Shown here one piece after another: positions 1,126 through 30,080 of a DNA stretch of 46,770 bases (positions are counted from its first letter, which is position 1; every line of letters starts with the position of its first letter). The DNA comes from Terriglobales bacterium (GTDB lineage Bacteria; Acidobacteriota; Terriglobia; Terriglobales; Acidobacteriaceae), in assembly GCA_025934025.1 (NCBI GenBank), contig JAICYU010000003.1:1-46770 (forward strand), written 5' to 3'. A program made the position numbers and the translations under genes. The notes below the pieces were generated by a model, which saw only the letters and a program-made list of their open reading frames with translations, did not search any database and was not told where the DNA came from.

Positions 1126-1164
1126 TTGTCCACTCGAAACTGCCCGACACTCCTCAATTCTCGG

Positions 1165-2565: not shown

Positions 2566-2587
2566 TACTGCTCCTTGAAACTTGTTG

Positions 2588-3037: not shown

Positions 3038-3039
3038 AG

Positions 3040-3633: not shown

Positions 3634-3647
3634 GAGGACAATTCTCA

Positions 3648-3653
3648 ATTATA
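3648..3653 (-). promoter_or_regulatory. Perfect -10 hexamer upstream of hslV
   Basis: TATAAT reads on the minus strand 14 nt before the hslV ATG. No good -35 hexamer is visible at 16-18 nt. If used, the 5' leader would be only about 8 nt and hslV would have almost no room for a Shine-Dalgarno sequence. Confidence 0.4.
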
Positions 3654-3783
3654 CGCCGCCCGCGATTACCAAAGGTCATTGCCGGCGCCGGCGGGTGTCG
3701 TCACACTTCCGCTTGTTGTGCGGGCGCGGAGAGCGGCGCACTGCGGGGTACAATCCAGCATCCCCCAAAAACTGGAGGTTGAT

Positions 3784-4017: not shown

Positions 4018-4035
4018 CGGTCTCGAAAAAGAGAG

Positions 4036-4073
4036 AACGGCCAGGCAAAACAGCCTGGCCGTTTCTTTTTTTT
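4036..4073 (+). terminator. Rho-independent terminator
   Basis: An 11-bp perfect stem (4036-4046 with 4053-4063) and a 6-nt loop, followed by an almost unbroken T run to 4073. It ends the small secreted-protein gene at 3784-4017. Confidence 0.93.
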
Positions 4074-4075
4074 GA

Positions 4076-4081
4076 TAGATT
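4076..4081 (+). promoter_or_regulatory. -10-like hexamer 7 nt before thioesterase start
   Basis: TAGATT lies 7 nt before the ATG at 4089, with no Shine-Dalgarno between. It is one of five such sites in the window (see findings). It lies immediately after the upstream terminator, so the thioesterase needs its own promoter here. Confidence 0.4.
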
Positions 4082-4088
4082 CTTCAGC

Positions 4089-4490
4089 ATGACGAAAAAA
4101 GGTCTTCCGCCCGGCTTGCGCGGCCAGGCCCAAATCGTGGTCAGGCACGAACACACTTTAAACCACCACAATTCCGCGCTGCCCGCGATTTTCTCCACCC
4201 CGCACATGATCGGTTTAATGGAAGTCGCGGCTGCTGAAGCAATGAAACCTTACTGCGGCCCCGGAGAGATCAGCGTAGGAACGGCCATCAATATCGAGCA
4301 CCGTGCGCCGACAATCCCCGGGCAACAGGTAACAGCCGAAGCGGAACTGGAATCAGAGAACGGACGCTTCTACGTTTTCCGCGTTCGCGCCCACAACGAA
4401 ACGGAAGAGATTGGCCGGGGAACCGTCACGAGGGCCTTCGTGAACCCGGCCGAGGTGGCAAAGAGACATGCGGTGAAAACCAGCCATTAG
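4089..4490 (+). CDS. Hotdog-fold thioesterase of the FlK-like family
   Basis: A 133-residue cytoplasmic hotdog protein, predicted acyl-CoA thioesterase. The motif FSTPHMIGLMEVAAAEAM followed by GTAINIEHRAPT matches the fluoroacetyl-CoA thioesterase (FlK) family. T37, E45 and H71 fall at the same spacing (8 and 26) as the known FlK triad Thr42/Glu50/His76. The residue six before the Thr, a lid Phe in FlK, is Leu here, so specificity for fluoroacetyl-CoA is unlikely; a general role in clearing small or toxic acyl-CoAs fits better (inference). It is a single gene between a terminator and the convergent gyrB. No Shine-Dalgarno is visible; see the hexamer at 4076. Confidence 0.85.
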   Translation: MTKKGLPPGLRGQAQIVVRHEHTLNHHNSALPAIFSTPHMIGLMEVAAAEAMKPYCGPGEISVGTAINIEHRAPTIPGQQVTAEAELESENGRFYVFRVRAHNETEEIGRGTVTRAFVNPAEVAKRHAVKTSH

Positions 4491-4590
4491 TACTGAGCCG
4501 TTAGCTCTTAGTCAATGCATCGCCCGAGCATCCCCGCGCGAGGGCCCGGATCTTCTAGAGAATCCGTGTCATCAATCAAGATCTGTGGTA

Positions 4591-4618
4591 AGAACTGCCG
4601 CGCAAGTTCGGCAGTTCT
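4591..4618 (-). terminator. Hairpin downstream of gyrB, possible terminator
   Basis: A perfect 10-bp stem (4591-4600 with 4609-4618) with an 8-nt loop lies 10 nt past the gyrB stop, between convergent genes. There is no real T tract on either strand, so it may be an mRNA-stabilising or weak terminator hairpin. Confidence 0.45.
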
Positions 4619-4627
4619 GGCAATGCT

Positions 4628-7297
<2,670 letters not shown>

Positions 7298-7454
7298 TCA
7301 AGGCTGTCAAATCGCTGACAAATATCTTAACATCAACACTTTAGCAGGAATCTGCGCGCAGCCTCTATTGTAACATAGGAGAGTTGCCGGGATTGGCCGG
7401 ATGGACAGGGTACCCGTGGCGATTTCTGAAAACAGGAATTGTCTAAAAATTTTC

Positions 7455-7482
7455 TTGCATTCAGGAACTTTGAAGGTATACT
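7455..7482 (+). promoter_or_regulatory. Sigma70-type promoter for small secreted peptide
   Basis: TTGCAT, a 16-nt spacer, then TATACT, about 62 nt before the ATG at 7545. Both hexamers are close to consensus and the site faces away from gyrB. Confidence 0.6.
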
Positions 7483-7544
7483 GCTCCCGCAGTTACCAAA
7501 GTAACCACCAAGATTTAAGAAAACACAAACAGGAGAACCTTCCC

Positions 7545-7679
7545 ATGAAAGCGTTACTTCGTTCAGCCATCCTCGGTTTGCTCGTGTTCGGCGGCTATGC
7601 GGCATTCTCGTCAGCCCCAATTAATGCCTCAATGCCGACTCTGCCTCGGCCAAATCCGTGCCCCGGAATTGTGAAGTAG
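7545..7679 (+). CDS. 44-residue secreted peptide
   Basis: A very short open frame with a good Shine-Dalgarno (AGGAGA, 8 nt before the ATG) and a near-consensus promoter at 7455-7482. Residues 1-29 look like a signal peptide (MKALLRS, hydrophobic core, SAPINAS), leaving a mature Pro-rich peptide of about 15 residues (MPTLPRPNPCPGIVK) with one Cys. No family is recognised. It could be a secreted signal, an envelope peptide or a leader for the membrane gene at 7800. The expression signals are better than expected by chance, but a peptide this short cannot be proven from one sequence. Confidence 0.55.
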   Translation: MKALLRSAILGLLVFGGYAAFSSAPINASMPTLPRPNPCPGIVK

Positions 7680-7799
7680 GTTTCGCAATTCGGATTAAGA
7701 GCCGACGTTAATTAGGAAGTTAATGTACCTTCGTGTTCCAGAGGACCTTGAACCATAGGGTTAAGGGTAGTAGGCTGTGTCCCTCTGGAGGGCGGTTCT

Positions 7800-8648
7800 G
7801 TGCATCTTCCTCTTATTACATCGCTTGTAGTGGCGTTGGCGGTTGTGGGTATCGCGGTTCAGGCGTCCATCCTTCGTTTCATATTTAAGCGGGGGCGTCA
7901 GGCTGAATTTTCAGTCTTTGCTACTTACAACGCCTTAGGTATTGCGGTGGCAGTGATCGGCTGGGCGGGCTATGCTCTGCAGGGCTGTAACGAGTACTTT
8001 TATCTTTGGTGGGTCTTGGGATTTCTCTATGTCGCCCTGGAATTTGGGTTGATGTATGAGATCTTCGTCAACGCTCTTAAGCCCTATTCGGCCCTGATTG
8101 ACCTCGGCAAGATGCTATTCGGCTGGGCCAGCGTTTTCCTTCTAATCGCGGCCACCCTCACTGCTTTTGCCAGCACCGGCTCGGGAGCTAACAAGATCAC
8201 AGCCGCGATGACGGTCCTGGAAAGGACCATGCGCCTCATTGAGTGCGGCCTCCTCCTGCTGTTTTTCCTTTTTGAGAAGCGGCTTCATCTTTCCTGGAAG
8301 AATGCCAACGTTGGCATTGCTGTTGGGCTGGGAATCAGCGGTGCTCTGGATTTAGCTGTATCGTATCTGACCGCTCATATGCCCTGGAGAGTGGGCGAAC
8401 TTGGCTTGATCAACAGTTTCGCTTATGTCGGCGTGCTGTTCTTCTGGGTGTATTGCATGAGTGCTCAGAAGAAGGAGCGCGTCTCCGTTCTGGACTCTCC
8501 GAATCGTCTAATCTTCCAGCGCTGGAACGAGGCTCTCTTGGGCTACAAGAACGGCGACTTCGCATTGGCATCGGGCCGCGTGGATTCCTTCCTTCCTGGT
8601 GTAGAGATGACCGTGGAGCGGGTAATGGCTCGCAAGATGGTCAACTAA
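7800..8648 (+). CDS. Polytopic membrane protein of unknown function
   Basis: A 282-residue protein with about seven hydrophobic segments (near 5-28, 42-60, 68-88, 105-127, 145-160, 172-192, 202-220) and a soluble C-terminal tail of about 60 residues ending ERVMARKMVN. It starts with GTG, with GGAGGG 7 nt upstream. I do not recognise a characterised family; proteins of this layout seem common among Acidobacteriota (from memory, unverified). It is encoded against the replication direction between dnaN and gyrB, where recF often lies, and ends at a bidirectional terminator shared with dnaN. It is not a transporter or sensor by any motif I can see. Confidence 0.8.
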   Translation: MHLPLITSLVVALAVVGIAVQASILRFIFKRGRQAEFSVFATYNALGIAVAVIGWAGYALQGCNEYFYLWWVLGFLYVALEFGLMYEIFVNALKPYSALIDLGKMLFGWASVFLLIAATLTAFASTGSGANKITAAMTVLERTMRLIECGLLLLFFLFEKRLHLSWKNANVGIAVGLGISGALDLAVSYLTAHMPWRVGELGLINSFAYVGVLFFWVYCMSAQKKERVSVLDSPNRLIFQRWNEALLGYKNGDFALASGRVDSFLPGVEMTVERVMARKMVN

Positions 8649-8670
8649 AAGTTAAGCCTCCAAAATGCAA

Positions 8671-8702
8671 AAAGGCCGGATTCGCTCCGGCCTTTGCTTT
8701 TG
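8671..8702. terminator. Bidirectional intrinsic terminator
   Basis: A perfect 10-bp stem (8671-8680 with 8686-8695) around the loop TTCGC. T-rich sequence follows on the plus strand, and a run of T follows on the minus strand. It separates the convergent membrane-protein gene and dnaN. Confidence 0.88.
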
Positions 8703-8713
8703 CTTGACATACT

Positions 8714-9832
8714 TCAGATCCGCATTGGCATAACGATGTATCGGTACTTGTATTCACTGTCACTCGGTTCATCAGGGCGGAGCTGGCCGGCGGATTGCGC
8801 ATCTTTGAATTCAAAGCGGACATCGCCGGTTCCCACCACCTTCAGAAATTCCAGAAGATATTGCGAGTTAAAGCCGATCACCATCGGATCCCCGCTGTAA
8901 GCCGTTTCCAACGAATCCTCCGATTCTCCGGTCTCGGTGTTCGAGGAGGAGACCTTCAACTCATTTTTTTCCAGTCGCATGCGAATTGCATTGGATCGCT
9001 CGTCGGCAAATTGCGCAACGCGCTGAATGGCGGAAGAGAGGTCCTCGCAGTGAACTGCCACAGCTTTGTTGTTGTCTCGCGGCAGCACTGCTTCATAGTT
9101 CGGGAACTGGCCGGTGAGCTGGCGCGAGGTCAGCAGCCGGCCGCCAATCCTGAAGAACAAAGTGGATTCATCGCGAGCAAACTCGACTGTTTGAGCATCA
9201 CTGCTGTTCAACAGAGTGCTCAACTCAGCCATGGCCTTTCTGGGAACCAGAATCTTCAATTCACCACTTACCGGCAGTTTGGAATTTGTGTGCTCCACAT
9301 GCGCCAGGCGATGGCCATCGGTGGCGACCATCACAATGGATTCCGGTTTAAGCACCATCAACGCGCCGTTGAGCGTGTAGCGTGATTCCTCATTCGAGAT
9401 CGCGAAGATGGTTTTCGCGATCAGATTACGCAATACCTGGGCCGGCAGTTCCAGCGCCGATTCCGAGGGGAACTGCGGCAGCGCGGGGAAGTTGGCTCGC
9501 GCCATCCCTACCATCTTGGTATTGGAGCGCCCGCTGCGGATTTGCACCCAATGGTTTTCCAGCAGCTTGATGCTGATATCGCCATCGCCCAGCAGCTTCA
9601 CGTAGTCGTAAAGCTTGCGCGCGGGAATTGTGCATGAGCCTTCCTTTTTTACCTTGGCGGGACAGGAGGTGCGCAAGCTCAGATCAAGGTCGGTTGCAGT
9701 GATCGAGAGCTTATCGCCGCCAACCTCAAAGAGAAAGTTCGAAAGAATCGGTATTGTGGTCTTGCGTTCCACAACACCCTGAGTCGCGGTGAGCTCTCTG
9801 AGCAAATCTGATTTGCTGACGTTGATTTCCAT
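8714..9832 (-). CDS. dnaN: DNA polymerase III sliding clamp (beta subunit)
   Basis: The ring-shaped processivity clamp of the replicative polymerase. It is 372 residues from the ATG at 9832, matching the usual 366-378. It starts MEINVSKSDLLRELTATQGV and contains TIPILSNFLFE, and ends YRYIVMPMRI, the conserved clamp C-terminus that helps form the partner-binding pocket. An in-frame ATG at 9868 would add 12 residues. It is less likely because the promoter at 9884-9912 would start transcription only about 9 nt before it, while GAGGTG lies 9 nt before 9832. It lies downstream of dnaA on the same strand, after a gap of about 310 nt with its own promoter signal. Confidence 0.97.
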   Translation of the reverse strand: MEINVSKSDLLRELTATQGVVERKTTIPILSNFLFEVGGDKLSITATDLDLSLRTSCPAKVKKEGSCTIPARKLYDYVKLLGDGDISIKLLENHWVQIRSGRSNTKMVGMARANFPALPQFPSESALELPAQVLRNLIAKTIFAISNEESRYTLNGALMVLKPESIVMVATDGHRLAHVEHTNSKLPVSGELKILVPRKAMAELSTLLNSSDAQTVEFARDESTLFFRIGGRLLTSRQLTGQFPNYEAVLPRDNNKAVAVHCEDLSSAIQRVAQFADERSNAIRMRLEKNELKVSSSNTETGESEDSLETAYSGDPMVIGFNSQYLLEFLKVVGTGDVRFEFKDAQSAGQLRPDEPSDSEYKYRYIVMPMRI

Positions 9833-9883
9833 CGTGGTTCCCACCTCAGCGGCAACAGCGGAAAGCATATCCTGGCCCCCTGA

Positions 9884-9912
9884 ATACTATTGTTTCTAAT
9901 TTAAGCCAACAA
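9884..9912 (-). promoter_or_regulatory. Candidate promoter of dnaN
   Basis: TTGTTG (9907-9912), a 17-nt spacer and TAGTAT (9884-9889) read on the minus strand. The match is moderate (3/6 and 4/6) but the spacing is ideal, in an AT-rich patch. It gives a leader of about 45 nt to the start at 9832. Confidence 0.4.
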
Positions 9913-10084
9913 CTAAATAAATACAGCAGTAATAGCAGATGCCTGAGGAAAAGTGGGAATCGGTCCCAAACCGTTTGCGCTGCTACGGTTTCCCTGTTTT
10001 TGCTCCCTGCATTTCCCGACCGCTATTGTGAACTGAACGTGGAAGCGAGGCATTGAATTTTCTTGTAAGCACGAATCTTGCACC

Positions 10085-10104
10085 GTTTCCACATTCACTC
10101 CACA
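10085..10104 (+). other. DnaA-box-like 9-mers in dnaA-dnaN gap
   Basis: GTTTCCACA at 10085-10093 differs by one base from the TTWTNCACA DnaA-box pattern; a weaker CACTCCACA follows at 10096-10104. The rest of the 313-nt gap (9833-10145) shows only the dnaN promoter signal and an AT-rich patch; the short open frames there look random. This could be a minor DnaA-binding cluster regulating dnaN, or chance. Confidence 0.3.
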
Positions 10105-10145
10105 AATGTCCTCAGAAGAACCTGGACTTACGGTGGAAATCCCGC

Positions 10146-11537
10146 TCAGTTGTTCAAAGTCTCCGTAAGCTTGTTGAGCATCCGATTGAGGTCTTTATCT
10201 TCCTGCCGCTGCTGTTCAATCTTATCAACCGAATGCATCACCGTGGTGTGATGCTTGCCTCCAAACTGCCGGCCGATTTCCGGCAGTGAAGCCTCAGTCA
10301 TTTGCTTGGCCAGGTACATGGCTACCTGCCTGGGAAAAACGATTGCCCGGGAGTTGCTCTTGGCCTTGATCTCCATCGCGCGCAGCCCGAACTGCTCAGC
10401 CACGGCCTTCTGGATGGCATCAATCGTGATCTTGCGCGCTTGCGAATCAATGAAATTCTTGAGCACCTGTTGCGCTGTGGCCAGGGTGATTTCCGCGCCG
10501 GTGAGGGAACAATAGGCCATCAAGCGGATGAGTGCTCCCTCCAGCTCGCGCACGTTGGTGCGGACATTAGACGCGATATAGAGCGCGAGATCCGTCGAGA
10601 GCGTAACTTTCTCTGATTCCGCCTTCTTCTGAAGAATGGCGACTTTGGTTTCGAGGTCCGGCGGCTGAATATCGGCGATTAAGCCCCACTCAAAGCGCGA
10701 GCGCAATCGGTCTTCAATCTCGGCTAACTCCTTGGGAGGACGATCGCTGGCGATCACGATCTGCTTCATGGACTCGTGCAGCGCGTTAAAGGTATGGAAA
10801 AACTCTTCCTGTGTGCGTTCCTTCTGGGCCAGGAACTGGATATCGTCAATCAGCAAAACATCAACGTTGCGGAATTTATCCCGAAAACTCGTCATGCGAT
10901 CATAGCGCAGCGAGTTGATCATCTCGTTGGTGAATTTCTCGCTCGATGCGTAGCAGATGGAGGCCTGCGGCTGATGCCGCTTCACCTCGTGCCCAATCGC
11001 CTGCATCAGGTGCGTCTTGCCCATGCCGACGCCACCATACAGGAAAAGCGGATTGTAGGCTTTTGACGGCCGCTCGGCGACAGCCTGCGCCGCGGCGTGA
11101 GCAAACTGGTTTCCCGCGCCAATTACGAAAGCTTCAAAGCGATATCTGGGATTCAGATGTGCCGCGGAATCCCAATCAAATTTCTGCTGTTTCACAGCGT
11201 TTGAGGCCGGCATGCTGGCGGAGACAGGAGCAAAGCCCCCATCGGGCCGCACCGGAGGACTCGAAGGATCCTCTTCCACGGTGACAAACCTCACGTCTTC
11301 GTACTCCGGAGTGAGGATGTCCACCGCCTCCTGAATCAGATCGCCAAACTTATCTCCAATGTGGCGAAACTCCGGCGTAGGGACGCGGACGAAAATAACT
11401 TTTCCGTTTGCGTGACTGAAGCGCGTGGGTTTGAGCCACGTGTCATAGGAATGACGGCTGATCTTTTTCTCCAACGCCGCCAGAATACGAAGCCAAGGAT
11501 TTGCGGTGGCGCTAACGGTCGCAGTAGTAACGGACAT
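10146..11537 (-). CDS. dnaA: Chromosomal replication initiator DnaA
   Basis: A 463-residue initiator that binds DnaA boxes and melts oriC. Domain I is at 1-85 (includes HSYDTWLKPT), followed by a Pro/Ser linker at 88-120 and the AAA+ domain at about 125-340 with Walker A GGVGMGKT (168-175) and Walker B VLLIDDIQF (227-235). Domain IV at the C-terminus has the DNA-contact signature GGKHHTTVMHSVDKI (426-440). In the usual GxRDHTTV motif the R-D pair is K-H here, a change in the region that reads DnaA boxes. AGGAAG is about 11 nt before the ATG. It faces away from rpmH across the proposed origin. Confidence 0.98.
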   Translation of the reverse strand: MSVTTATVSATANPWLRILAALEKKISRHSYDTWLKPTRFSHANGKVIFVRVPTPEFRHIGDKFGDLIQEAVDILTPEYEDVRFVTVEEDPSSPPVRPDGGFAPVSASMPASNAVKQQKFDWDSAAHLNPRYRFEAFVIGAGNQFAHAAAQAVAERPSKAYNPLFLYGGVGMGKTHLMQAIGHEVKRHQPQASICYASSEKFTNEMINSLRYDRMTSFRDKFRNVDVLLIDDIQFLAQKERTQEEFFHTFNALHESMKQIVIASDRPPKELAEIEDRLRSRFEWGLIADIQPPDLETKVAILQKKAESEKVTLSTDLALYIASNVRTNVRELEGALIRLMAYCSLTGAEITLATAQQVLKNFIDSQARKITIDAIQKAVAEQFGLRAMEIKAKSNSRAIVFPRQVAMYLAKQMTEASLPEIGRQFGGKHHTTVMHSVDKIEQQRQEDKDLNRMLNKLTETLNN

Positions 11538-12779: not shown

Positions 12780-14534
12780 TTGAGCGAATACCACAACCCA
12801 CAACAAGACCCTGGCTCACAGAAACGGCTGATGCTGGCTTTTTTGCTCGTCTTCATCATGATCGCGGCGATGCAGTTTCTTCTTCCTAAGCCGAAGCCGC
12901 CGCAGCAGGAGAAGCAGGGCGCCACGCCGCAGCCCTCGGCCCAGGCAACTCCTGTTCCCGCAGCGGCCGCTACTCCCAAACCACGTGCACCGCGAGCCGC
13001 ATCAAGAGCGGCGATCAAGCAGGGGGGCAGCGAATCTGAAACCGTTTTGGAAAACGATTTCTACCGCGTCACGTTCAGCAATCGCGGCGCCGTAGCGAAG
13101 TCCTGGATTTTGAAAAAGTACAAGGACCAGAAGGGGAATCCACTGGATCTGGTCAACGGGGCCGCCGCTCCCGTGCTTGGCTATCCGCTTTCATTCTTTG
13201 CTTATGACAAGGACTTGGAAAATCAGCTCAACAACGCGCTATATGTCGGCAAAACGGAAATGGCCGGCACTTCCAAAGATCTGACGTTCGACTATTCTGA
13301 TGGCGATATCACCGCGCGAAAAACCTTTCGTCTGGAGAAGAACTATGTCCTCGCGCTTGAGACAGAGGTCACGCGCAATGGCGAAGCCATCACCGTCTAT
13401 CCGCAGTGGCCCGGCGGATTGGGCGATCAGGGTTCTTTAGGCTCTTATTCAGCGTCGCGTCTCGACTGGAATCAGGACGGCAATGTCGAGCGCAAGACCG
13501 CGACGTCCGGCTTCTTCCTGACCGGCAAGAAGTGGATCTCAGGCGGCCAGACTCTCAACGGGCCATTCCAGTGGGCGGCAACGGCAGACCAGTACTTTAT
13601 TGCAGCATTCATGCCCGCCAATCCCAATGGCACGGCGATGGTAACACTGAACAGCCAGGTTGAGGTTCCGAAGGACCCTGCCAATCCGAAAGAAACGACC
13701 AAGGTCTCAGTGCTTGGGCTGGCTTTCGGCCATTCTGGAGAAGCGAACCGGTTGCGACTTTATGCCGGCCCCAAGGCAGTGGACCAACTGGAGAGCACGC
13801 AGGCGCAACCCGGGGGGCCTGATCTTCGCGGTGCGATAGATTTCGGCTTCTTCGGCTTCATTGCGCGTCCGCTCTTCCTCTGGCTCAAGTGGACGCACGA
13901 CCACTGGATCTCCAACTGGGGCTGGGCCATTGCCTTCCTCACGATTGTCATCACGATGGCTCTGTTGCCGCTGCGCGTCTCCAGCCAGAAATCAGCGCTG
14001 AAGATGCAGAAAATCCAGCCACAGGTAAAAGCGATCTCGGAAAAATACAAACGCTACAGCATCACCGACCCGCGACGCCAGGAAATGCAGAAGGAGATGT
14101 CGGCGCTGTACAAGCGTGAAGGTGTGAACCCGCTGGGCGGGTGCTTCCCCATGCTGCTGCAGATGCCGTTCCTCTTCGCGTTCTACTCCATGCTGGGCAA
14201 CGCGATTGAACTGCGCCTTTCAAGCTGGCTGTGGGTCAAGGATCTTTCCGCGCCTGACCCGCTTCACATCCTGCCAATCCTGATTGTTGTAAGCATGTTC
14301 GTCATGCAAAAGAGCACACCCCAGGCGGGCATGGACCCGGCGCAGCAGAAGATGATGAACATGCTCGCGCCGTTGATGATCGGCGGCATAAGCTGGAGTG
14401 TCGCCGCCGGGCTCTGCGTTTACTGGGCCATCAGCAACGTTCTTGGGTATGCGCAGCAGGTCTGGATCAACCGCTCGGAATTGGGCCAGCAGGTACGGAA
14501 AGCGCAGGAGCGCCGCGCCACACGCAAGAAATGA
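12780..14534 (+). CDS. yidC: Membrane protein insertase YidC
   Basis: An Oxa1-family insertase that places proteins into the inner membrane, alone or with SecYEG. It is 584 residues from a TTG start. The first transmembrane segment is at 16-35 (LMLAFLLVFIMIAAMQFLL), followed by a Pro/Gln/Ala-rich linker, the large periplasmic beta domain (about 75-345) of the Gram-negative type, then the conserved membrane core from about 360 (WGWAIAFLTIVITMALLPLR, NPLGGCFPMLLQMPFLFAFY) with the hydrophilic-groove Arg in the LPLR block. The C-terminus is basic. It overlaps the khpB start by 4 nt. Confidence 0.97.
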   Translation: MSEYHNPQQDPGSQKRLMLAFLLVFIMIAAMQFLLPKPKPPQQEKQGATPQPSAQATPVPAAAATPKPRAPRAASRAAIKQGGSESETVLENDFYRVTFSNRGAVAKSWILKKYKDQKGNPLDLVNGAAAPVLGYPLSFFAYDKDLENQLNNALYVGKTEMAGTSKDLTFDYSDGDITARKTFRLEKNYVLALETEVTRNGEAITVYPQWPGGLGDQGSLGSYSASRLDWNQDGNVERKTATSGFFLTGKKWISGGQTLNGPFQWAATADQYFIAAFMPANPNGTAMVTLNSQVEVPKDPANPKETTKVSVLGLAFGHSGEANRLRLYAGPKAVDQLESTQAQPGGPDLRGAIDFGFFGFIARPLFLWLKWTHDHWISNWGWAIAFLTIVITMALLPLRVSSQKSALKMQKIQPQVKAISEKYKRYSITDPRRQEMQKEMSALYKREGVNPLGGCFPMLLQMPFLFAFYSMLGNAIELRLSSWLWVKDLSAPDPLHILPILIVVSMFVMQKSTPQAGMDPAQQKMMNMLAPLMIGGISWSVAAGLCVYWAISNVLGYAQQVWINRSELGQQVRKAQERRATRKK

Positions 14535-15103
14535 CGCGCGCGTTTAGAATCGAAACTTCAGCAGAATGGGAATTCGGAACTATGCTTCAAGATAAGGTCG
14601 CTGCGGCAAAGAAGATTGATTCGCTGCTGAAGAACATCATCGCTTCCGGCGGCTTCCGCTTGAAGTACCGCATTACGGTTAACCCGCCAGTCAATCCAGA
14701 TCAAGACTTGGAAACTCCGGAGGTCCTGGTGGAACTGGCCGGACCCGACAGCAGCCTTTTGCTGGAGCGCGGAGGCGAGATGCTGCGGTCCTTGGAACTG
14801 ATCGGCCATGAAATGCTGCACCTTCATTCGGAAGAGCATTCGCGCGTCGCTTTTGATTGCAAAGGATACCGTGCAGCCCGCCAACAGGAGTTGAAGCTCG
14901 CCGCCCAGGTAGCAGCGGAAAAGGTCGCCCGCACCGGCGTTCCCTACTCTTTTGCTCCGATGTCATCGCGTGAGCGGCGAATGCTTCACCTGGCTTTTCG
15001 TGACCACGCCTCACTGACTACCCAGAGCGAAGGCGAAGGCGGCCGCCGATACGTGGTTCTCTATCCCAAGGACTACAAGCCCGCACGGCCTGTTCGCCGC
15101 TAA
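14531..15103 (+). CDS. khpB: KhpB/Jag-like RNA-binding protein (KH-R3H)
   Basis: A 190-residue cytoplasmic RNA-binding protein. Residues about 22-112 resemble a type-II KH domain, although the GxxG loop reads LERGG instead of IGRRG. Residues 113-185 form an R3H domain (VAFDCKGYRAARQQELKLAA, then APMSSRERRMLHLAF). The N-terminal Jag domain of the Firmicute proteins is absent. It overlaps yidC by ATGA, so the ATG at 14531 is the natural coupled start; an internal ATG at 14582 is possible. The yidC-jag pairing is classical. Confidence 0.88.
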   Translation: MTRAFRIETSAEWEFGTMLQDKVAAAKKIDSLLKNIIASGGFRLKYRITVNPPVNPDQDLETPEVLVELAGPDSSLLLERGGEMLRSLELIGHEMLHLHSEEHSRVAFDCKGYRAARQQELKLAAQVAAEKVARTGVPYSFAPMSSRERRMLHLAFRDHASLTTQSEGEGGRRYVVLYPKDYKPARPVRR

Positions 15104-15157
15104 ATTCTCTCCTCGTGCCATTCGGAACTCAGGCTATCATCAGAGCGAGTTTGCCCC

Positions 15158-15991
15158 ATGACTGAAGTAAGCATGATCGGCGAAGTCCAGATCTTCGGGC
15201 TTCTGGACGAAGAGGAACGCGAAGCTCTCGCCCAGATGATGAACAGCCGCGATTTCAAAGCTGGCGAGGCGATCTTCCAGTACGGAGATCCCGGCGGCGA
15301 GATTTTTATTCTTCGCAACGGCAGCGTGGAAGTGTACGTGGAGAGCACCGATGGCGAGAAGATCATCCTGGCGGAAAACGAAAAGGGCGATGTGCTCGGA
15401 GAGTTATCTTTCCTTGATGGAGGCCCAAGAACCGCTACCGCCGTGGCGCGCGAAGATACGCAAACTCTGAGCATGCATCGCGAGCGCCTGCTCGAGTTTG
15501 TGGACAAGCATCCGCACGCCGCCATGGACCTTCTGACCGTGGTCGGGCGCAGGCTCCGCTCCACCGACGATCTCTTGCGTACCCGCGTCTCGCGCAACAT
15601 CAACGTGGAAGAAGAGCAGCGGATGACCCTGGGCCAGCGCGTTGCCGATCGCGTGGCGGCCTTCGGAGGTTCCTGGAAATTCATTGCCATCTTCGGCTCA
15701 TGTATGGTGATCTGGGTAATTCTGAACACGGTAGCCGTACTTTTCCGCCATTTCGATCCCTACCCTTTCATTCTGCTCAATCTGTTTCTTTCCATGATCG
15801 CGGCCATTCAAGCGCCGGTGATCATGATGTCGCAGAACCGCCAGGCGGCGAAGGACCGGTTGCAGGCGGATGCCGATTACGAAATAAATCTGAAGGCCGA
15901 ACTGGAAGTGGCGCATCTTCATCGCAAGCTGGACAACATCTACGAGCGACTGGAAGAGCACTGGTCGCGCCTGGAACGCACCCACGACTAA
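15158..15991 (+). CDS. Cyclic-nucleotide-binding domain fused to DUF1003 membrane domain
   Basis: A 277-residue fusion. Residues 8-125 are a cNMP-binding beta-roll (IFGLLDEEEREALAQMM, FILRNGSVEVYV, GDVLGELSFLDGGPRTATAV: the phosphate-binding cassette with GELSF and RTATA). Residues about 150-260 are a DUF1003 module with two transmembrane helices (FIAIFGSCMVIWVILNTVAV and FILLNLFLSMIAAIQAPVIM) and the NRQAAKDRLQADADYEINLK signature. The C-terminal helix is a short coiled coil. It probably senses a cyclic nucleotide at the membrane; the output is unknown. It sits between khpB and mnmE in the origin cluster, 54 nt after khpB. Confidence 0.9.
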   Translation: MTEVSMIGEVQIFGLLDEEEREALAQMMNSRDFKAGEAIFQYGDPGGEIFILRNGSVEVYVESTDGEKIILAENEKGDVLGELSFLDGGPRTATAVAREDTQTLSMHRERLLEFVDKHPHAAMDLLTVVGRRLRSTDDLLRTRVSRNINVEEEQRMTLGQRVADRVAAFGGSWKFIAIFGSCMVIWVILNTVAVLFRHFDPYPFILLNLFLSMIAAIQAPVIMMSQNRQAAKDRLQADADYEINLKAELEVAHLHRKLDNIYERLEEHWSRLERTHD

Positions 15992-15997
15992 ACGCTT

Positions 15998-16003
15998 TAA
16001 AAT
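15998..16003 (+). promoter_or_regulatory. -10-like hexamer 7 nt before mnmE start
   Basis: TAAAAT lies 7 nt before the GTG at 16011, and no Shine-Dalgarno lies between. It is part of the leaderless-type pattern described in the findings. Confidence 0.4.
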
Positions 16004-16010
16004 GTAGCCT

Positions 16011-17369
16011 GTGAACCTTGACGACACCATCGTCGCCCTTGCTACCCCTCAGGGGCGAGGCGGCATTGGAGTGGTGCGTCTTTCCGGGCCGGAGGCGCGT
16101 TCCATTGCCTCGCCCATGCTTCGCGTGAAGCGCGATCTTGAACCGGGACGAGCTCTCTTCGGGGAATTGCTGGATCCGGAGAGTAACTCGCGTATTGATG
16201 AAGTGGTCGTGACCTTCTTTGCCAAGCCGCATTCCTACACCACCGATGACGTGGTCGAGATATCGGCCCACGGCTCTCCTGTAGTGCTGCGCCATGTAGT
16301 CGAACTGGCAACTGCCCGGGGCGCGCGGCTGGCCGAGCCGGGAGAGTTCACCATGCGGGCTTTCCTCAACGGCCGCATTGATCTCACCCAGGCTGAGGCT
16401 GTGCGCGATCTCATCGAGTCGCAAACGCTCTACCAGGCCAAAGTGGCCTCACAACAGCTTGAAGGAGCGCTCTCTCGCTGCTTGCAGCCGATCAAGAAGA
16501 GGCTGGTGGACTTGATCGCCGTGATGGAAGCCGGTATTGACTTCGCCGAGGATGATGTCGCAGTCCTCCCCGGCGATGAGATACGCCAGCGCATCAACGC
16601 CGTTCAGGAGCCACTGGAGCATCTTCGGGCATCGTTCAGCTATGGCCGCATGGTTCACGAAGGGTTGAGTCTGGCGATTGTTGGCCGCCCGAACGTCGGT
16701 AAATCGAGCTTATTTAATCGCCTGGTCCAGCGCGAGCGCGCGATTGTGACTGCCACGCCGGGCACCACTCGCGATCTGGTGACGGAAACGGTCGCTTTGG
16801 CCGGCATTCCCCTCAAGCTGATTGACACCGCCGGCATTCGCCACAGCAGCGACGAAGCCGAAAGCATCGGCGTGCGCAAGTCGCAGGAGGCGCTCAGCGA
16901 GGCAGACATGGTGCTGGTGGTTCTCGACACCACACAGCAGATTTCCGAAGAAGATCGCGAGCTCCTGGCTTCCGCTCACTCGCGTCGTGCTCTGGTTGCC
17001 GCCAATAAATCAGATCTTTCCGCCAATGGCCTCTCGCCGGAGCTTGATGGATGTAAAGCGGTGAGAACGTCGGCCGTGACGGGAGAGGGAATCGAAAAGC
17101 TGCGCGAGCAAATCCTCGCTGAAATTTCCGGTTCGGCCGGCAGCGAGCAGGAATCCGGCTTTCTGACTAATGTACGGCATCAACGTTTGGTGGAAGAATC
17201 CATTGCTGGCCTCGATGCGGCGCGAGTGGCGGTCCAGCGAAGTGTGCCGCACGAAATGATCATGCTTGACCTCTACAGCGCGTTGCGTCCGTTGGACGCC
17301 ATCACCGGCGAGACCACGACAGACGATATTCTCGGCGTAATTTTCAGCAGTTTTTGTATTGGCAAGTAA
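16011..17369 (+). CDS. mnmE: tRNA modification GTPase MnmE
   Basis: A 452-residue GTPase that, with MnmG, adds (carboxymethyl)aminomethyl groups to U34 of certain tRNAs. The N-terminal folate-binding domain starts DDTIVALATPQGRGGIGVVR. The G domain, inserted in a helical domain, shows G1 GRPNVGKS (225-232), G2 GTTRD (251-255), G3 DTAG (272-275) and G4 NKSD. The C-terminus is the invariant FCIGK. It starts with GTG. It ends exactly one base before the stop of the convergent papain-like gene. MnmG, often nearby in origin clusters, is not in this window. Confidence 0.97.
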   Translation: MNLDDTIVALATPQGRGGIGVVRLSGPEARSIASPMLRVKRDLEPGRALFGELLDPESNSRIDEVVVTFFAKPHSYTTDDVVEISAHGSPVVLRHVVELATARGARLAEPGEFTMRAFLNGRIDLTQAEAVRDLIESQTLYQAKVASQQLEGALSRCLQPIKKRLVDLIAVMEAGIDFAEDDVAVLPGDEIRQRINAVQEPLEHLRASFSYGRMVHEGLSLAIVGRPNVGKSSLFNRLVQRERAIVTATPGTTRDLVTETVALAGIPLKLIDTAGIRHSSDEAESIGVRKSQEALSEADMVLVVLDTTQQISEEDRELLASAHSRRALVAANKSDLSANGLSPELDGCKAVRTSAVTGEGIEKLREQILAEISGSAGSEQESGFLTNVRHQRLVEESIAGLDAARVAVQRSVPHEMIMLDLYSALRPLDAITGETTTDDILGVIFSSFCIGK

Positions 17370-23508: not shown

Positions 23509-24891
23509 CTACTCGCCAGCGATGGTCATGCCGTCAATGCGCAGAGTAGGGCAGGCAACGGAGCCGCGAAATTCCAAGTCGCTGCCGATTTCAGAGATGT
23601 TGTTCAGCATGTCTTTCAGGTTTCCTGCCACGGTGATCTCTTCCACCGGGAACGTAAGTTCGCCGTTCTCGATCCAGATTCCGCTGGCGCCTCGGGAAAA
23701 ATCGCCGGTAACTAGATTCACGCCGAAGCCAAGGAACTCTGTGACGAACAGGCCGCGTTTGATGTCGGCGATGATCTGCTTCGGAGTACTCGTTCCGGGG
23801 TTCAGGAAGAAATTGCCGGAGCCGATTCCTGGATTTCCCGCGAGCCCGCGGGCTGCATTGCCTGTTGTTTTCAGTCCGAGCTTGCGCGCCGTGTAGGTGT
23901 TGAGCAGATACGATTGGAGCACGCCTTTCTCGATCACTACCGTGCGCCGTGTAGGAACCCCTTCGCCATCGAAAGGCGAAGTTCCAAAGCCGCCGGGAAT
24001 GGTTCCGTCGTCTACAACGGAGACGTTCTCGCCGGCAACTTTTTGTCCCAACTTGCCGACAAGAAACGACGACTGCCGGTAGATGGAATCGCCGGACGCA
24101 GCTTCAAAGATGTTGCCCAGGATAGAACCGGCGACGGTCTGCTCGAACACAATCGGCACCCTGGTGGAGCTGATCTTGCGCGCGCCGAGCCTGCGAAGTG
24201 TGCGTTGGGCTGCTTTATGGCCGACCGCCTCAGGCGATTCCAGCTTACCCAGCCGGCGCGCTACTGTGTACCAGTAATCGCGTTGCATACTGCCGTTCTC
24301 AGACTGCGCGATTGGAGCGGCGGAAAGACCGCAGTAGGAACGGCGGTACTCGCCCGCAAATCCAAGAGAGTTGGCCAGCACCTTGCGTCCGGTGGAAGCG
24401 TCAAAGCTGCCGCCATCAGAATTTTTTAGTCGCGTATCAAAATCGAGCGCAGCTTTTTCTGCCCGGCGCGCGTAGTCAATGCGCTGTTCCGGAGGCAGAG
24501 AGTAGACGTCATCGGAATAAAGCTGTAAGTCTCCAGCGATTAAGCCGAGTTCGGAGGGATCAGGGAGCGCAACGAACGGATCTTCTGACGTCACCTTCGC
24601 CAGCGCAAGCGCGCCGTTTACCAGATGGGAAATTCCATCTTCAGAAAAATCGCTCGAATAAGTGCTGGCCACGCGCTTGCCAACGAAAACTCGCAGGCCC
24701 ATTCCGCGAGAGCCCGCTTCCTTCAGGGTCTCGACTTCTCCCATGCGCACGACGGTGGAAAACTCGGTGCCATCGCGCACGATAGCCTCAGCGGCAGTGG
24801 CGCCCGATTTCATGGCGCGCTTAACAACGTCTTCTGCCAGCTCGCGAAGGTTGACTTCGGTCGTGCTGAGTAGATCTGCGTTCGCTGCCAC
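23509..24891 (-). CDS. pmbA: TldE/PmbA family protein, partner of TldD
   Basis: A 460-residue member of the modulator-of-gyrase family. Characteristic blocks: GMGLRVFVGKRVASTYSSDF near 62-82, DDGTIPGGFGTSPFDGEG, then GNFFLNPGTSTPKQII and WIENGELTFPVEEITVAGNL. It lacks the HExxxH zinc motif, as expected for the TldE half of the TldD/TldE heterodimer, a peptidase that trims unfolded or modified peptides such as microcin B17 precursors and CcdA in E. coli. It follows tldD by 2 nt, in one operon. Confidence 0.93.
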   Translation of the reverse strand: MAANADLLSTTEVNLRELAEDVVKRAMKSGATAAEAIVRDGTEFSTVVRMGEVETLKEAGSRGMGLRVFVGKRVASTYSSDFSEDGISHLVNGALALAKVTSEDPFVALPDPSELGLIAGDLQLYSDDVYSLPPEQRIDYARRAEKAALDFDTRLKNSDGGSFDASTGRKVLANSLGFAGEYRRSYCGLSAAPIAQSENGSMQRDYWYTVARRLGKLESPEAVGHKAAQRTLRRLGARKISSTRVPIVFEQTVAGSILGNIFEAASGDSIYRQSSFLVGKLGQKVAGENVSVVDDGTIPGGFGTSPFDGEGVPTRRTVVIEKGVLQSYLLNTYTARKLGLKTTGNAARGLAGNPGIGSGNFFLNPGTSTPKQIIADIKRGLFVTEFLGFGVNLVTGDFSRGASGIWIENGELTFPVEEITVAGNLKDMLNNISEIGSDLEFRGSVACPTLRIDGMTIAGE

Positions 24892-24893
24892 GC

Positions 24894-26324
24894 TCAGTTA
24901 CCCGTTCCGCCCACGGTCATGCGGTCGAGCTTGATGGTGGGAATACCAACGCCGACAGGAACGGATTGGCCGTCTTTTCCGCAGGTACCCACGCCTTCGT
25001 CAAGTTGCAGATCATTGCCTACCATGGAAACTTTGGTCAGCGCGTCAGGCCCGTTTCCGATCAGAGTGCAGTTGCGCAGAGGAGCTGTGACCTGGCCGTT
25101 TTCGATCAAGTAAGCCTCAGAAGCGGAGAAGACGAACTTGCCGTTCGTGATGTCTACCTGTCCACCGCCGAAGTTCACGGCATATACGCCGCGCTTTACC
25201 GAGCGAATAATGTCCTCGGGTGAGTCCTCGCCTGCCAGCATGTAGGTATTTGTCATGCGCGGCATGGGAATATGCTCGTAACTTTCGCGGCGGCCGTTGC
25301 CGGTATCAGGCATACGCATCAGTTTGGAAGAGAGCTTGTCGCTCAGATACCCCTTCAGAATTCCTTTTTCAATCAGCACTGTGTTCTGCGTGGGAGAGCC
25401 CTCATCGTCCACGTTGATGGAGCCCCGGCGCGAAGGCAGCGTGCCATTGTCCACCACCGTACATTTTTCTGACGCGACTCGCTTGCCGAGCAGCCCGGCA
25501 AACGCCGAAGTTCCTTTGCGATTGAAGTCCGCCTCAAGTCCGTGGCCGATTGCCTCATGCAGCAGGATCCCAGGCCAGCCCGGACCGAGCACAACTTCCA
25601 TTTCTCCCGCGGGAGCTTCGCGCGCGCCGAGCTGAATCAGAGCCTGGCGGCTGGCTTCTGCGGCGAAAAATTCGGGTGTCTTTTCAGTTTGAAAGTAGTC
25701 AATGCTAACCCGCCCTCCGCCACCGGACTGGCCTTTAGCAGAGATTTCTCCAGACTTAGCTATCGTCATAAGCGAGAACCGCGCCAATGGCTGCACGTCG
25801 GTCGCAAAGGTGCCATCAGATCCAACCACCAGGATCTGCCGCAGTTCGTCAGCGTATCCGGCGCGGACCTGAACGATACGAGGATCGTAAGCCCGGGCGG
25901 CGCGATCGGCGCGCATTACCAGTTCCAACTTGGCCGCAAGGTCAGCATCGGCGGAAGGTGTAGACACCTGATAAAGCTGGTGGGCTGCGCTCTCTTTGAA
26001 TCCCTGTACCGACTGCTGGGCGGGACCGCTGGCGATAAGAGCTGCCGTCCGGGCAGCCCGCAGGATCTTCTCCGGCGCGAGGTCGTCCGTATAGGCGTAA
26101 CCGGTGCGCTCGCCAGAGAGGACGCGAATTCCGCAACCGGCAGAGATGCCTTGCGAAGCAGACTTCACCAGCGACTCGTCCACCGTGATAGAGGTGGACG
26201 TCAGGTACTCGAAATAGAGATCCGCGTAGTCGCCGCCGGCTGAGAGGGCCTCAGAGAGATACTTCTCCAGATCGCCTTGGGTGATGCCAAACTTCTGAAA
26301 GAAAAGGGATTGATTTTGCGTCAT
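24894..26324 (-). CDS. tldD: Metalloprotease TldD
   Basis: The catalytic half of TldD/TldE, 476 residues. The zinc motif is HEAIGH (256-261), followed by GLEADFNRKGTSAF, and the conserved third-ligand Cys is near residue 448 in GTCGKDGQ. Other family blocks are DEGSPTQNTVLIEKG and RMTNTYMLAG. AGGAAT lies just before the ATG. It is divergent from the unknown gene at 26531 and leads the tldD-tldE operon. Cytoplasmic. A natural substrate is not identifiable here because no microcin or toxin gene is adjacent. Confidence 0.95.
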   Translation of the reverse strand: MTQNQSLFFQKFGITQGDLEKYLSEALSAGGDYADLYFEYLTSTSITVDESLVKSASQGISAGCGIRVLSGERTGYAYTDDLAPEKILRAARTAALIASGPAQQSVQGFKESAAHQLYQVSTPSADADLAAKLELVMRADRAARAYDPRIVQVRAGYADELRQILVVGSDGTFATDVQPLARFSLMTIAKSGEISAKGQSGGGGRVSIDYFQTEKTPEFFAAEASRQALIQLGAREAPAGEMEVVLGPGWPGILLHEAIGHGLEADFNRKGTSAFAGLLGKRVASEKCTVVDNGTLPSRRGSINVDDEGSPTQNTVLIEKGILKGYLSDKLSSKLMRMPDTGNGRRESYEHIPMPRMTNTYMLAGEDSPEDIIRSVKRGVYAVNFGGGQVDITNGKFVFSASEAYLIENGQVTAPLRNCTLIGNGPDALTKVSMVGNDLQLDEGVGTCGKDGQSVPVGVGIPTIKLDRMTVGGTGN

Positions 26325-26530: not shown

Positions 26531-28057
26531 ATGACTCCTGAGCTTCTCGCCCGGTCTTTGCAGCAATTCCTTTCCGAATCGCGCAACGGTGTGGTGATCG
26601 AAGATGGTCAAACTCTGTTCGATCTGGCTGCTGCGCAATACTCCATCTCTGCTGAGCGCGGGCGTTGCTTGCTTCATTTGTGGTCGGAAGAGCGCAACCT
26701 CGTCCGTGAAGTTGTGGATGCAGAAGCGAAGAGCGGAGTGCTTGCCCTGAGCGTTTGCCGGTTTGCGCAAGCTCGTCCTCACAAACTCGAAATTTGGCGC
26801 GACCGCGATCGCCGCTCTCCATCCGCCAGAAACGTAGCCCGAAAAACATATGCGCGGTTGCTCGAGCGTGTGCTGCGTCGCCAATCCCTGGACTGGGCGC
26901 TGGACAAACCGGGGCTGGTCACAACCATGGACCTTGAGCAGACCTTTTCTCCGGTATATGCGCGTGGGCTGCTGCGCAAGGGGAACACTACATTTGCGGT
27001 GTTGGGAGTCAATCGCCAGGAGACCCAGGGCTCGATTGACGCCGCTGTGACGTTTGCCTTGATTTGGCTCGACGCCTGCCGCGACCGCGAAGCCGGACGT
27101 TCCGTTGTCCAGGGACTGCGTCTGTATCTTCCTGCCCATAGCTCCACTGCTGTGCAAATCCGGCTCGGGCATCTGAACCATCAGCTTGCCAAATTCCAGC
27201 TCTTTGAATTCGATGAGCGAGACGAATCCATCACCGATATTGACTGCTCCGACACCGGCAATATCGAAACGCGGCTGATGCGATGCCCGGATGCGGCGCA
27301 GGCGCGAGCACGGTTCGGCGCCAGCGTTCAACAAATCCTCGCTGCTGCACCACAGGCCGAAGTAGCAGTGCTCTCGCCGACTGAAATCGGCTTCCGGTTG
27401 TACGGCCTGGAGTTTGCACGGGCTCGGGTAGTGAACGTTCCCGGAACCTTCCAGGTTGAAGAAGAGGTCATCTTTGGAACTGCGGGATTTCAGGAGCGGC
27501 TCACGGAGGACAAGCAGGAAATATTCGAGCATTTTATTAAGACGCTTTCTTCCGCTCGTTGCGTCTCGGGTGATCGGCGCGACCCGCTTTGGCGCATGTA
27601 TCCTGAACGTTGGCTGGAATCGCTGGTCTTTCGCAATGTAGCCGCTGTTGATGGGCGCCTAAATCGCCAGCATGTGTATTCGCAGGTACCGGCATTCTCA
27701 GCCGCTGACCGCGCCATGATTGACGTGCTCACCTGCACGCGGGAAGGGCGCCTTGCAGTGCTTGAGTTGAAAGCCGACGAGGACATCAACCTGCCGCTTC
27801 AGGGGCTCGATTATTGGGCGCGGGTCCGCTGGCATCACAATAGGGGCGAGTTTCCGCAGTTCGGGTATTTTCCCGGAGTACATCTTTCTGATCGCCCGCC
27901 GCTGCTGTTTCTGGTTGCGCCTTCATTGCGCGTGCATCCGGCGCTCGACACCGTCCTGCGCTATTTCTCGCCCGAGATTGAATGGATGCTGGTGGGAGTG
28001 GATGAGCGGTGGCGAGAGGGCATTCGCGTGATCTACCGGAAATCGCCGGCTATCTGA
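26531..28057 (+). CDS. Unknown protein with C-terminal PD-(D/E)XK nuclease-like motif
   Basis: 508 residues, cytoplasmic, not recognised as a named family. The N-terminal 340 residues are mixed alpha/beta without a visible signature. From about 355 the order fits a PD-(D/E)XK core: a helix with E363 (PERWLESLVF), a hairpin with D398 (RAMIDVLTC), the strand with E412-x-K414 (LAVLELKAD), and a helix with Q424 (LQGLDYWARVRW). This resembles restriction or repair nucleases of the NucS/DUF91 type. Substrate and specificity are unknown. It is divergent from tldD and its stop is 7 nt from the convergent UvrC-like gene. The nuclease call is an inference from motif spacing. Confidence 0.85.
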   Translation: MTPELLARSLQQFLSESRNGVVIEDGQTLFDLAAAQYSISAERGRCLLHLWSEERNLVREVVDAEAKSGVLALSVCRFAQARPHKLEIWRDRDRRSPSARNVARKTYARLLERVLRRQSLDWALDKPGLVTTMDLEQTFSPVYARGLLRKGNTTFAVLGVNRQETQGSIDAAVTFALIWLDACRDREAGRSVVQGLRLYLPAHSSTAVQIRLGHLNHQLAKFQLFEFDERDESITDIDCSDTGNIETRLMRCPDAAQARARFGASVQQILAAAPQAEVAVLSPTEIGFRLYGLEFARARVVNVPGTFQVEEEVIFGTAGFQERLTEDKQEIFEHFIKTLSSARCVSGDRRDPLWRMYPERWLESLVFRNVAAVDGRLNRQHVYSQVPAFSAADRAMIDVLTCTREGRLAVLELKADEDINLPLQGLDYWARVRWHHNRGEFPQFGYFPGVHLSDRPPLLFLVAPSLRVHPALDTVLRYFSPEIEWMLVGVDERWREGIRVIYRKSPAI

Positions 28058-28064
28058 CCAGAGG

Positions 28065-29273
28065 TCACGAAGGCGCCTCGTCTTTTGATTGTTCGTCTTC
28101 CTTGGTAGTTTCGGTTTGCGTCTTTGGGCCCACAATTCTATTCGCAGCATTGAGCAGCTTACGCATTGGCAATTCGCCATCGGGTTTAGCAAAGATAATT
28201 TCGCCGGTCCTATGGCTGCGGTAGTACCAGCGTTTCAGGATTGCCAATTCTTCTGTCGTCTGCGTGACGGATGGGGGTCTTGTCGGAATCAGCGCATCCA
28301 GTGCCGCGCACAGGCTCTGCGCCAGAGGTTCCGCTTGGGCTTCCGATTCGACCGCGATTCTCAACGAGGCCGGCCCCAATAGTGCGCCTTGATGGAAGCG
28401 GAAGAGGGCGGCGGTATCTTTTTCGTTCGAAGGTTGAATCATTACAGCATCGAGTTTGTCCAGGCGGCGGCAAATCTCATCCGCGCCAGAGAGAATACTC
28501 TTAACCTTCATGATCCTGGCATGCTGCTGGGCCGCGGCTTCAAAGTCCAGAGCGGCAGAGAGTTGGTCGCGCTCGGCTTCCAGTTCTGCGATCAGCGATT
28601 CGCCGCCCGTATCGAAGTAGGCCTGCACGCGCGCTACCTCCGCCGCATACGCTTCATCAGTACAGCCTTTGAAGCATGGGGCCAGGCACATCTTCATCTC
28701 CGAATAAACACACCCAGGGAAGCCAGGATCGGGATGCAGCTCAAAGGTGCAGCGCCGGACCTTGAACAGGTCGAGCGAATCGTTCATGAAGTTTTCCGCC
28801 ACGCCTCGTGACCGGAAAGGACCATAGTAGAGCGACTGGGCGCCCGCCCGTCCCAGCCGGGTGGTGACGTACGCGCGCGGGTATGCATTCTCCAAATTCA
28901 GCTTGATTACCGGAGCAGGATGCAGGCGCAGCCGCTTCTGGTAAGTTTCAGGAAACTCTTGTCGCAAAAGGCGGCAAAGCAGCAGGGCAGATTCAAAGTC
29001 AGAGCCGGTCAGCGAATACTCGATGTGTGCCACCCGCTCACGCAAGTTCAGGCGTTTTGATTGCATTTCTGCCGGCGCAAGCAGACGGTGCAATCGCCTC
29101 CTGAGGTTGGCCGTCTTGCTGACGTAAGGTTCCGAGCCGCTCTCCGCCCCACGCAATGCAAACACTGCGGGGGCTGCCGAGAATTGTGAAAAGAACTCTG
29201 CAGGGTCATCAGGCGAGAATGGAACTACGATCGGGCGATCGAAAGTCCGCGCGCCCTGTTGTTTCGCGCTCAC
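28065..29273 (-). CDS. UvrC-like protein with degenerate GIY-YIG domain, no RNase H-like nuclease domain
   Basis: 402 residues resembling the N-terminal half of UvrC. A GIY-YIG-like region (about 34-117) keeps YVSKTANLRRRL, but the catalytic Glu of UvrC (in ALLLE) is C100 here, and YVG is YVS, so cleavage activity is probably lost. Four Cys (175, 188, 196, 200) match within one residue the spacing of the Fe-S ligands known in E. coli UvrC (154, 166, 174, 178). A UVR motif lies at about 225-260, where UvrC binds UvrB. The C-terminal RNase H-like and HhH domains are absent. It lies 9 nt after the DnaC-like ATPase in one operon. A regulator or decoy of UvrB is one possibility. Confidence 0.85.
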   Translation of the reverse strand: MSAKQQGARTFDRPIVVPFSPDDPAEFFSQFSAAPAVFALRGAESGSEPYVSKTANLRRRLHRLLAPAEMQSKRLNLRERVAHIEYSLTGSDFESALLLCRLLRQEFPETYQKRLRLHPAPVIKLNLENAYPRAYVTTRLGRAGAQSLYYGPFRSRGVAENFMNDSLDLFKVRRCTFELHPDPGFPGCVYSEMKMCLAPCFKGCTDEAYAAEVARVQAYFDTGGESLIAELEAERDQLSAALDFEAAAQQHARIMKVKSILSGADEICRRLDKLDAVMIQPSNEKDTAALFRFHQGALLGPASLRIAVESEAQAEPLAQSLCAALDALIPTRPPSVTQTTEELAILKRWYYRSHRTGEIIFAKPDGELPMRKLLNAANRIVGPKTQTETTKEDEQSKDEAPS

Positions 29274-29282: not shown

Positions 29283-30080
29283 TTAGCGGAAATTGGCGCT
29301 CTGGACCTTCTGCCGAAAATCAACGCCATCCATTTGCACTACTCGGCACATCTCGTGCAAGCGCGACCGCATGCGCTCGGTAATGCGGTCTCCCAACGTT
29401 TCGCCGCGGGCCGCGTTGCGTGAGGCCTCAGCGTGAGAGGTGCGCCCACTCTGCATTTCGCCAGGCCCAAGATTAGGAAAGTTGGTGGTAATGATCGTAG
29501 TCTTCCGCTCGTTATAACGGCTGTTGAGAATATGGCTTACTGTATCCCAGACCCATTCGCTGGGCTTCACCGCGCCGAGTTCATCCATTACCAGGACCTC
29601 AGCCTCAAAGATGGGCCGAAGAATTTCAAGCTCGGTGGTCTGTACGGTGGGATTGTACGAGTTCTGGATTTCCTTAAGCAGCTCGCGGTAATCGCAGAAC
29701 CGGCAGGGGACACCCTTGCTGCGCACTAACTCCTGAATGATTCCGACTGCAAGATGGGTTTTCCCGGTCCCGACGGGACCAATCACAAGAAGACCAGTTT
29801 TTTCGATTGGATACTCTTCAACGAACCGGCCGGCTGCCAGCCGCGCTGCTGCCAGCGAACGGTGCGCCCCGGAAAAATCGGTTGCGAAATCCGCAAGGGT
29901 GCAATGCTCGTAGCGGGATGGGATTCGCGCCGCGTTCAGCAATCGCTCTGCCCGGGCCTCATTGCGGCAGTCACAACGTGCCACCCGTTTTGCTTTTCCT
30001 GGAACTTCGACGGCCTTCCATCCGGTGCCGCAGCACAGCGGACATTCTGAAGGGGAAGGTTGTGGGGCAGGCGATCCCAT
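29283..30080 (-). CDS. DnaC/IstB-like ATP-binding protein with N-terminal zinc finger
   Basis: 265 residues. The N-terminus has a CxxC...CxC pattern (C13, C16, C36, C38), a putative zinc finger. A AAA+ domain follows: Walker A GPVGTGKTH (101-109), Walker B VLVMDELG (162-169), then ITTNF as sensor I. Helicase loaders of the DnaC/DnaI type and transposon IstB proteins share this layout. No transposase is nearby, so a helicase-loader-like role is likelier than IstB, but this is not settled. GGAG lies 8 nt before the ATG. First gene of the operon with the UvrC-like protein. Confidence 0.88.
   Translation of the reverse strand: MGSPAPQPSPSECPLCCGTGWKAVEVPGKAKRVARCDCRNEARAERLLNAARIPSRYEHCTLADFATDFSGAHRSLAAARLAAGRFVEEYPIEKTGLLVIGPVGTGKTHLAVGIIQELVRSKGVPCRFCDYRELLKEIQNSYNPTVQTTELEILRPIFEAEVLVMDELGAVKPSEWVWDTVSHILNSRYNERKTTIITTNFPNLGPGEMQSGRTSHAEASRNAARGETLGDRITERMRSRLHEMCRVVQMDGVDFRQKVQSANFR

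Follow-up and report, generated by a model that had tools for sequence, protein, structure and literature searches.

In nucleotide excision repair, UvrC is usually regarded as the incising enzyme that is recruited last. The locus described here raises the question of what a relative of UvrC does when its nuclease sites appear to be gone. The window (the whole stretch of 46,770 nucleotides analysed, contig JAICYU010000003.1 of assembly GCA_025934025.1, Terriglobales bacterium) carries a short UvrC-like gene, which the first-pass annotation had described as keeping the binding parts of UvrC and losing both nuclease sites, with the catalytic Glu replaced by Cys100. Conservation across the family bears out the first part, while the replacement by Cys proved to be a misalignment by one residue. 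A conserved relative without nuclease sites beside a normal UvrC would mean that the UvrC-type parts have a selected job besides cutting, and this short family would permit a direct test of the roles of the UVR hairpin, the Fe-S segment and the GIY-YIG fold.

Gene and domain layout

The open frame annotated as a UvrC-like protein is real and comprises 402 codons on the minus strand, and the start of most relatives lies about 11 residues downstream of its annotated start. The features of the gene are as follows.

28065..29273, minus strand: short UvrC-like gene of 402 aa (stop codon not counted), annotated with a GTG start
28929..29216, minus strand: GIY-YIG-fold domain, residues 20-115 (AlphaFold model and PDB fold matches)
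29094..29096, minus strand: Arg60, counterpart of the Arg conserved in GIY-YIG domains, present in every aligned relative (alignments)
28977..28979, minus strand: Leu99, position of the UvrC catalytic Glu (three alignments)
28974..28976, minus strand: Cys100, one residue past the position of the Glu; most relatives have Tyr (alignments)
28662..28751, minus strand: cysteine segment with C175, C188, C196 and C200 (UvrC-type four-Cys motif) and C204 (alignment)
28500..28601, minus strand: UVR (UvrB/UvrC-binding) helical hairpin, residues 225-258 (Pfam PF02151 and model)
28131..28490, minus strand: C-terminal linker domain, residues 262-381, the UvrC region preceding the EndoV domain (profiles and model)

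In the NCBIfam profile search, TIGR00194 (UvrC) matched residues 50-320 with profile positions 26-288 of 574 (4.6e-31). This match spans the protein from the GIY-YIG-like domain to the UVR motif and ends ahead of the EndoV/RNase H part, and the UvrC GIY-YIG N-terminal domain was recognized by hhalign with 99.7% probability. After the linker no EndoV/RNase H or HhH domain was found, the last residue of the frame being 402. Of the two UvrC incisions, the 3' one is made by the GIY-YIG domain and the 5' one by the C-terminal domain that is missing here, so the annotated label "3'-side nuclease domain" names the wrong cut for it.

The AlphaFold model was built from 30 family members and has a mean pLDDT of 83.6, with the GIY-YIG-fold domain mostly over 80. 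From the N-terminus on, it shows a domain of GIY-YIG type, then the cysteine segment at low confidence, then a hairpin of two helices (225-240 and 244-261), and last a mixed alpha/beta piece. The best PDB matches to the first domain were UvrC GIY-YIG domains (1yd6, Z 6.2; 1yd3/1ycz, Z about 5), so that the fold assignment rests on modest Z values of 5.0-6.2. When the whole model was compared with the PDB by Foldseek, no match was obtained at E below 0.001.

Both binding motifs are kept, as annotated. C175, C188, C196 and C200 are invariant in all 128 aligned rows, and a fifth cysteine after these four UvrC-type ones, C204 (28662-28664), is near-invariant (121 of 128 rows). PF02151 was found at residues 225-258 of the window protein with E 4.3e-4 and 20.4 bits, just under the Pfam cut-off of 21.5, and was recognized in 15 of 30 family members with a best E of 1.9e-7. 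By its sequence, the short protein is a truncated UvrC paralogue consisting of a GIY-YIG fold, a four-Cys segment, a UVR hairpin and a short linker domain.

With UvrC (TIGR00194) it shares the GIY-YIG fold, the four-Cys motif with near-identical spacing, the UVR hairpin and the linker up to the EndoV boundary. It lacks the EndoV/RNase H and HhH domains as well as the catalytic Glu, the first Tyr and the distal Asn, and at 402 aa it is shorter than the 645-aa UvrC encoded in its genome. The same domain architecture, namely UvrC minus EndoV-HhH and without an exonuclease, is listed in Table 1 of PMC1564403 (Dunin-Horkawicz 2006) for the "Cho-like" truncated UvrC (C4-UvrBb), which has one member, from Gloeobacter violaceus, and is counted there in the GIY-YIG nuclease family. 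This comparison is one of architecture and does not extend to the active sites of the Cho-like form; the short family differs in occurring in Acidobacteriota and in lacking the catalytic Glu. The best NCBIfam score, 140.5 bits over residues 28-381, was obtained with the Cho-like+Exo model of Actinobacteria (PRK07883, DEDD exonuclease; cut-off 495). Only the UvrC-like half is shared (profile positions 209-555), and the N-terminal DEDD exonuclease is absent. Descent from this exonuclease-fused family is unsupported, as the PRK07883 model gives genuine acidobacterial UvrCs more bits (about 190-259) than the short protein (140). E. coli Cho (b1741) likewise has a short UvrC-type GIY-YIG domain and a cysteine segment, but the Glu is retained there in the sequence ALLLE, a Cho-specific domain forms the C-terminus and UVR is lacking, while the short protein lacks the Glu and has UVR; its Cho profile score is 28.7 bits against a cut-off of 367. 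Judged by catalytic tests, the short protein is neither UvrC nor Cho. No description of such a family was found among the open-access papers searched for UvrC paralogues and Rv2191.

Register and residues of the active site

The UvrC catalytic Glu aligned with Leu99 in three separate alignments, i.e. phmmer to 1yd6 (the solved domain of B. caldotenax), profile-profile hhalign with UvrCs, and an HMM of 21 genuine UvrCs. A plain MAFFT column count concurred, with the Glu in column 99 in five UvrCs. The structural superposition also fits the Leu99 register; its end points alone were reported, so the register is not settled by superposition by itself. Cys100 aligned one residue past the Glu, at a position held by Asn in the UvrC of the same genome. 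The reading of Cys as a replacement of the catalytic Glu was therefore rejected.

The loss of the Glu is nevertheless a property of the whole family. The catalytic Glu is present in 21 of 21 genuine UvrCs, whereas among 123 distinct orthologs its column holds Leu in 106, Tyr in 10, Gln in 4, Ala in 1, His in 1 and a gap in 1. The first-pass annotation had named homologs retaining the Glu, or a misaligned active site, as findings that would count against it: the site was misaligned, and yet none of the 123 has Glu in column 99 or column 100. The column after the Glu position is Tyr in 101 of the 123 orthologs and Cys in only 2, and since Cys is a rare variant at a neighbouring residue, no special role is to be read into Cys100. 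The claim of a putatively dead site is consequently stronger than a single sequence could have made it, and the Cys is incidental.

Other residues of the site have also changed. In 112 of 123 orthologs Phe stands at the first GIY Tyr, in 105 Ser or Thr stands at the Gly of YVG (YVS in the window protein, as annotated), and only 1 still has the distal Asn. Retained are the second Tyr (114 of 123) and the GIY-YIG Arg (122 of 123, with one gap); the latter is Arg60, which corresponds to R39 of T. maritima UvrC. Tyr50, Arg60 and Glu94 are strongly kept in the short proteins, with Arg60, Glu94 and the four cysteines in every comparable ortholog, and no new invariant acidic residue was seen in the GIY-YIG domain of these proteins.

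Distribution, selection and excision-repair genes

Of 37 sampled genomes from the host family (Acidobacteriaceae), 36 carry an ortholog, the exception being an 81% complete assembly, and orthologs were patchy among the sampled genomes across the remainder of the host class (Terriglobia). No ortholog was found in 217 sampled genomes from other parts of the phylum, where the best scores were not above 119 bits and the matches were UvrC-length frames. Orthologs score 275 bits or more, apart from two divergent members at 156-157. The best 80 named loci were all from Acidobacteriota, and a plasmid search returned UvrC-type proteins only. In a tree of 65 sequences the short proteins formed one clade (support 99/98, stem 1.5 changes per site) apart from all UvrCs used; the Cho row sat on a very long branch and its placement is unreliable. 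Pairwise dN/dS among congeners was about 0.08-0.18, values that are approximate since the synonymous sites are near saturation. The short gene is clearly under strong purifying selection and is thus not a decaying gene.

The genome was searched piecewise for the excision-repair genes. As the first-pass annotation had asked, a true uvrC exists elsewhere: an intact UvrC of 645 residues with GVY, YVG, Glu and Asn all present. UvrB is also encoded, and two full-length UvrA-type proteins are located at 2288-5005 and 191-3046 on separate contigs (1358 and 1118 bits). Since the genome has these four proteins besides it, the short protein is an addition and not a replacement.

Proposed role and gene neighbourhood

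We propose that the short protein may be a UvrC-derived pseudo-nuclease acting as a non-incising partner that binds UvrB, damaged DNA or both and modulates nucleotide excision repair, a reading that we hold to be about evenly balanced between right and wrong. By its sequence the protein descends from the UvrC/Cho lineage and has kept the GIY-YIG fold, the four-Cys segment and the UVR hairpin. It has lost the first GIY Tyr and the distal Asn along with the Glu that binds metal, and the 5'-incision domain is missing altogether, so that it would be able to make neither cut. Its UVR hairpin would bind the C-terminal hairpin of UvrB as UvrC does, although UVR hairpins are also known in proteins without UvrB binding. 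Since the UvrC-type cysteines are present, the cysteine segment is predicted to hold a [4Fe-4S] cluster, which would aid DNA recognition; a [4Fe4S] cofactor coordinated by UvrC is named in the title of Silva 2020 as cited in PMC11138216. The short protein might sit on UvrB, or on the pre-incision complex of UvrB with DNA, make no cut there, and so leave incision by UvrC delayed, channelled or protected, possibly near replication. The wider suggestion, that Terriglobia hold a dedicated non-cutting UvrC paralogue which competes for UvrB or shields pre-incision complexes, possibly with an Fe-S damage or redox signal and a link to replication, is offered tentatively and is more doubtful. We know of no case in bacterial excision repair of regulation by a non-cutting UvrC paralogue.

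The retained Tyr50 and Arg60 speak against the pseudo-nuclease reading in that they might support some residual chemistry. Together with the strongly kept Glu94, and with truncated Cho-like UvrCs as a known architecture (PMC1564403), they would fit a Cho-like 3' nuclease that is still active through a rebuilt site, in which other residues such as the invariant Glu94 replace the Glu. Glu94, however, matches a Glu that genuine UvrCs hold besides the catalytic one. Three residues of the site have disappeared (the Glu that binds metal, the first Tyr and the distal Asn), the domain has gained no invariant acidic residue, and we consider such an enzyme quite unlikely. At the other extreme, the truncation and the missing active sites could mark a functionless relic of a duplicated uvrC; the purifying selection measured by dN/dS largely refutes this, the near-universal presence in the host family and the invariant cysteines and Arg also speak against it, and it is highly improbable. 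A stand-alone redox or DNA-damage sensor, in which the Fe-S-like segment signals oxidation or charge transport through DNA and UvrB is not needed, would suit the four invariant UvrC-type cysteines and the near-invariant C204. No output domain is present in the protein, though, the Fe-S cluster is a prediction, and the cysteine segment is of low confidence in the model, as expected without a cofactor; we regard this reading as unlikely.

The gene neighbourhood bears on a further reading, in which the pseudo-nuclease has a partner outside nucleotide excision repair and its UVR hairpin and Fe-S-like segment work in replication, for instance by loading the helicase together with a DnaC-like AAA+ protein. 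The immediate neighbours are as follows.

29283..30080, minus strand: DnaC/DnaI-like AAA+ protein resembling helicase loaders, on the same strand as the short UvrC-like gene and 9 bp upstream of it
26531..28057, plus strand: convergent neighbour of 508 aa with a C-terminal NucS/EndoMS-like PD-(D/E)XK domain (fold match)

Among the best 80 named loci, 67 have a dnaC-like gene upstream on the same strand, and dnaA, dnaN and gyrB lie within the same window. Apart from the transposon IstB, no other DnaC/DnaI-like gene was found in the genome, and the protein is for this reason perhaps the replicative helicase loader of the group. Against a replication partner, the gap to dnaC varies from about 10 to 1600 bp, and in more distant orthologs the gene lies between TldE/PmbA-like and ribulose-phosphate epimerase-like genes (identified by reading the sequences), where dnaC is absent from the surrounding 2 kb. 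The pairing with dnaC has the look of lineage-specific synteny, and we find this reading rather doubtful.

The DnaC/DnaI-like protein carries an N-terminal Cys cluster. A TldD/TldE-like pair (23509-26324, minus strand) lies near the short UvrC-like gene in the window, and a TldE/PmbA-like gene directly adjoins the short gene in four more distant Terriglobia loci.

Control of the operon by the SOS response was considered and rejected. A conserved direct repeat close to TTCGCCTTTNATTCG is found just before lexA throughout the genus and could serve these bacteria as LexA operator. Matches to it in the window were no more than expected by chance and no LexA-type site was located at the short UvrC-like operon, so damage induction is unsupported.

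Neither Pfam nor NCBIfam matched the 508-aa neighbour. In fold its C-terminal domain resembles the NucS/EndoMS repair endonucleases (Z 11.2, 113 residues, rmsd 2.8) with D398, E412-x-K414 and Q424 conserved, and a further PD-(D/E)XK-like domain is suggested by residues 96-243. The protein occurs in most sampled Terriglobia, with frequent synteny with the short gene; it is also present in genomes without the short UvrC, and the idea of an obligate partner was rejected as weak. Elsewhere in the window, gyrB, dnaN and dnaA stand together on one strand (4628-11537, minus), followed by yidC and mnmE at 12780-17369, and this is probably the origin region of the chromosome.
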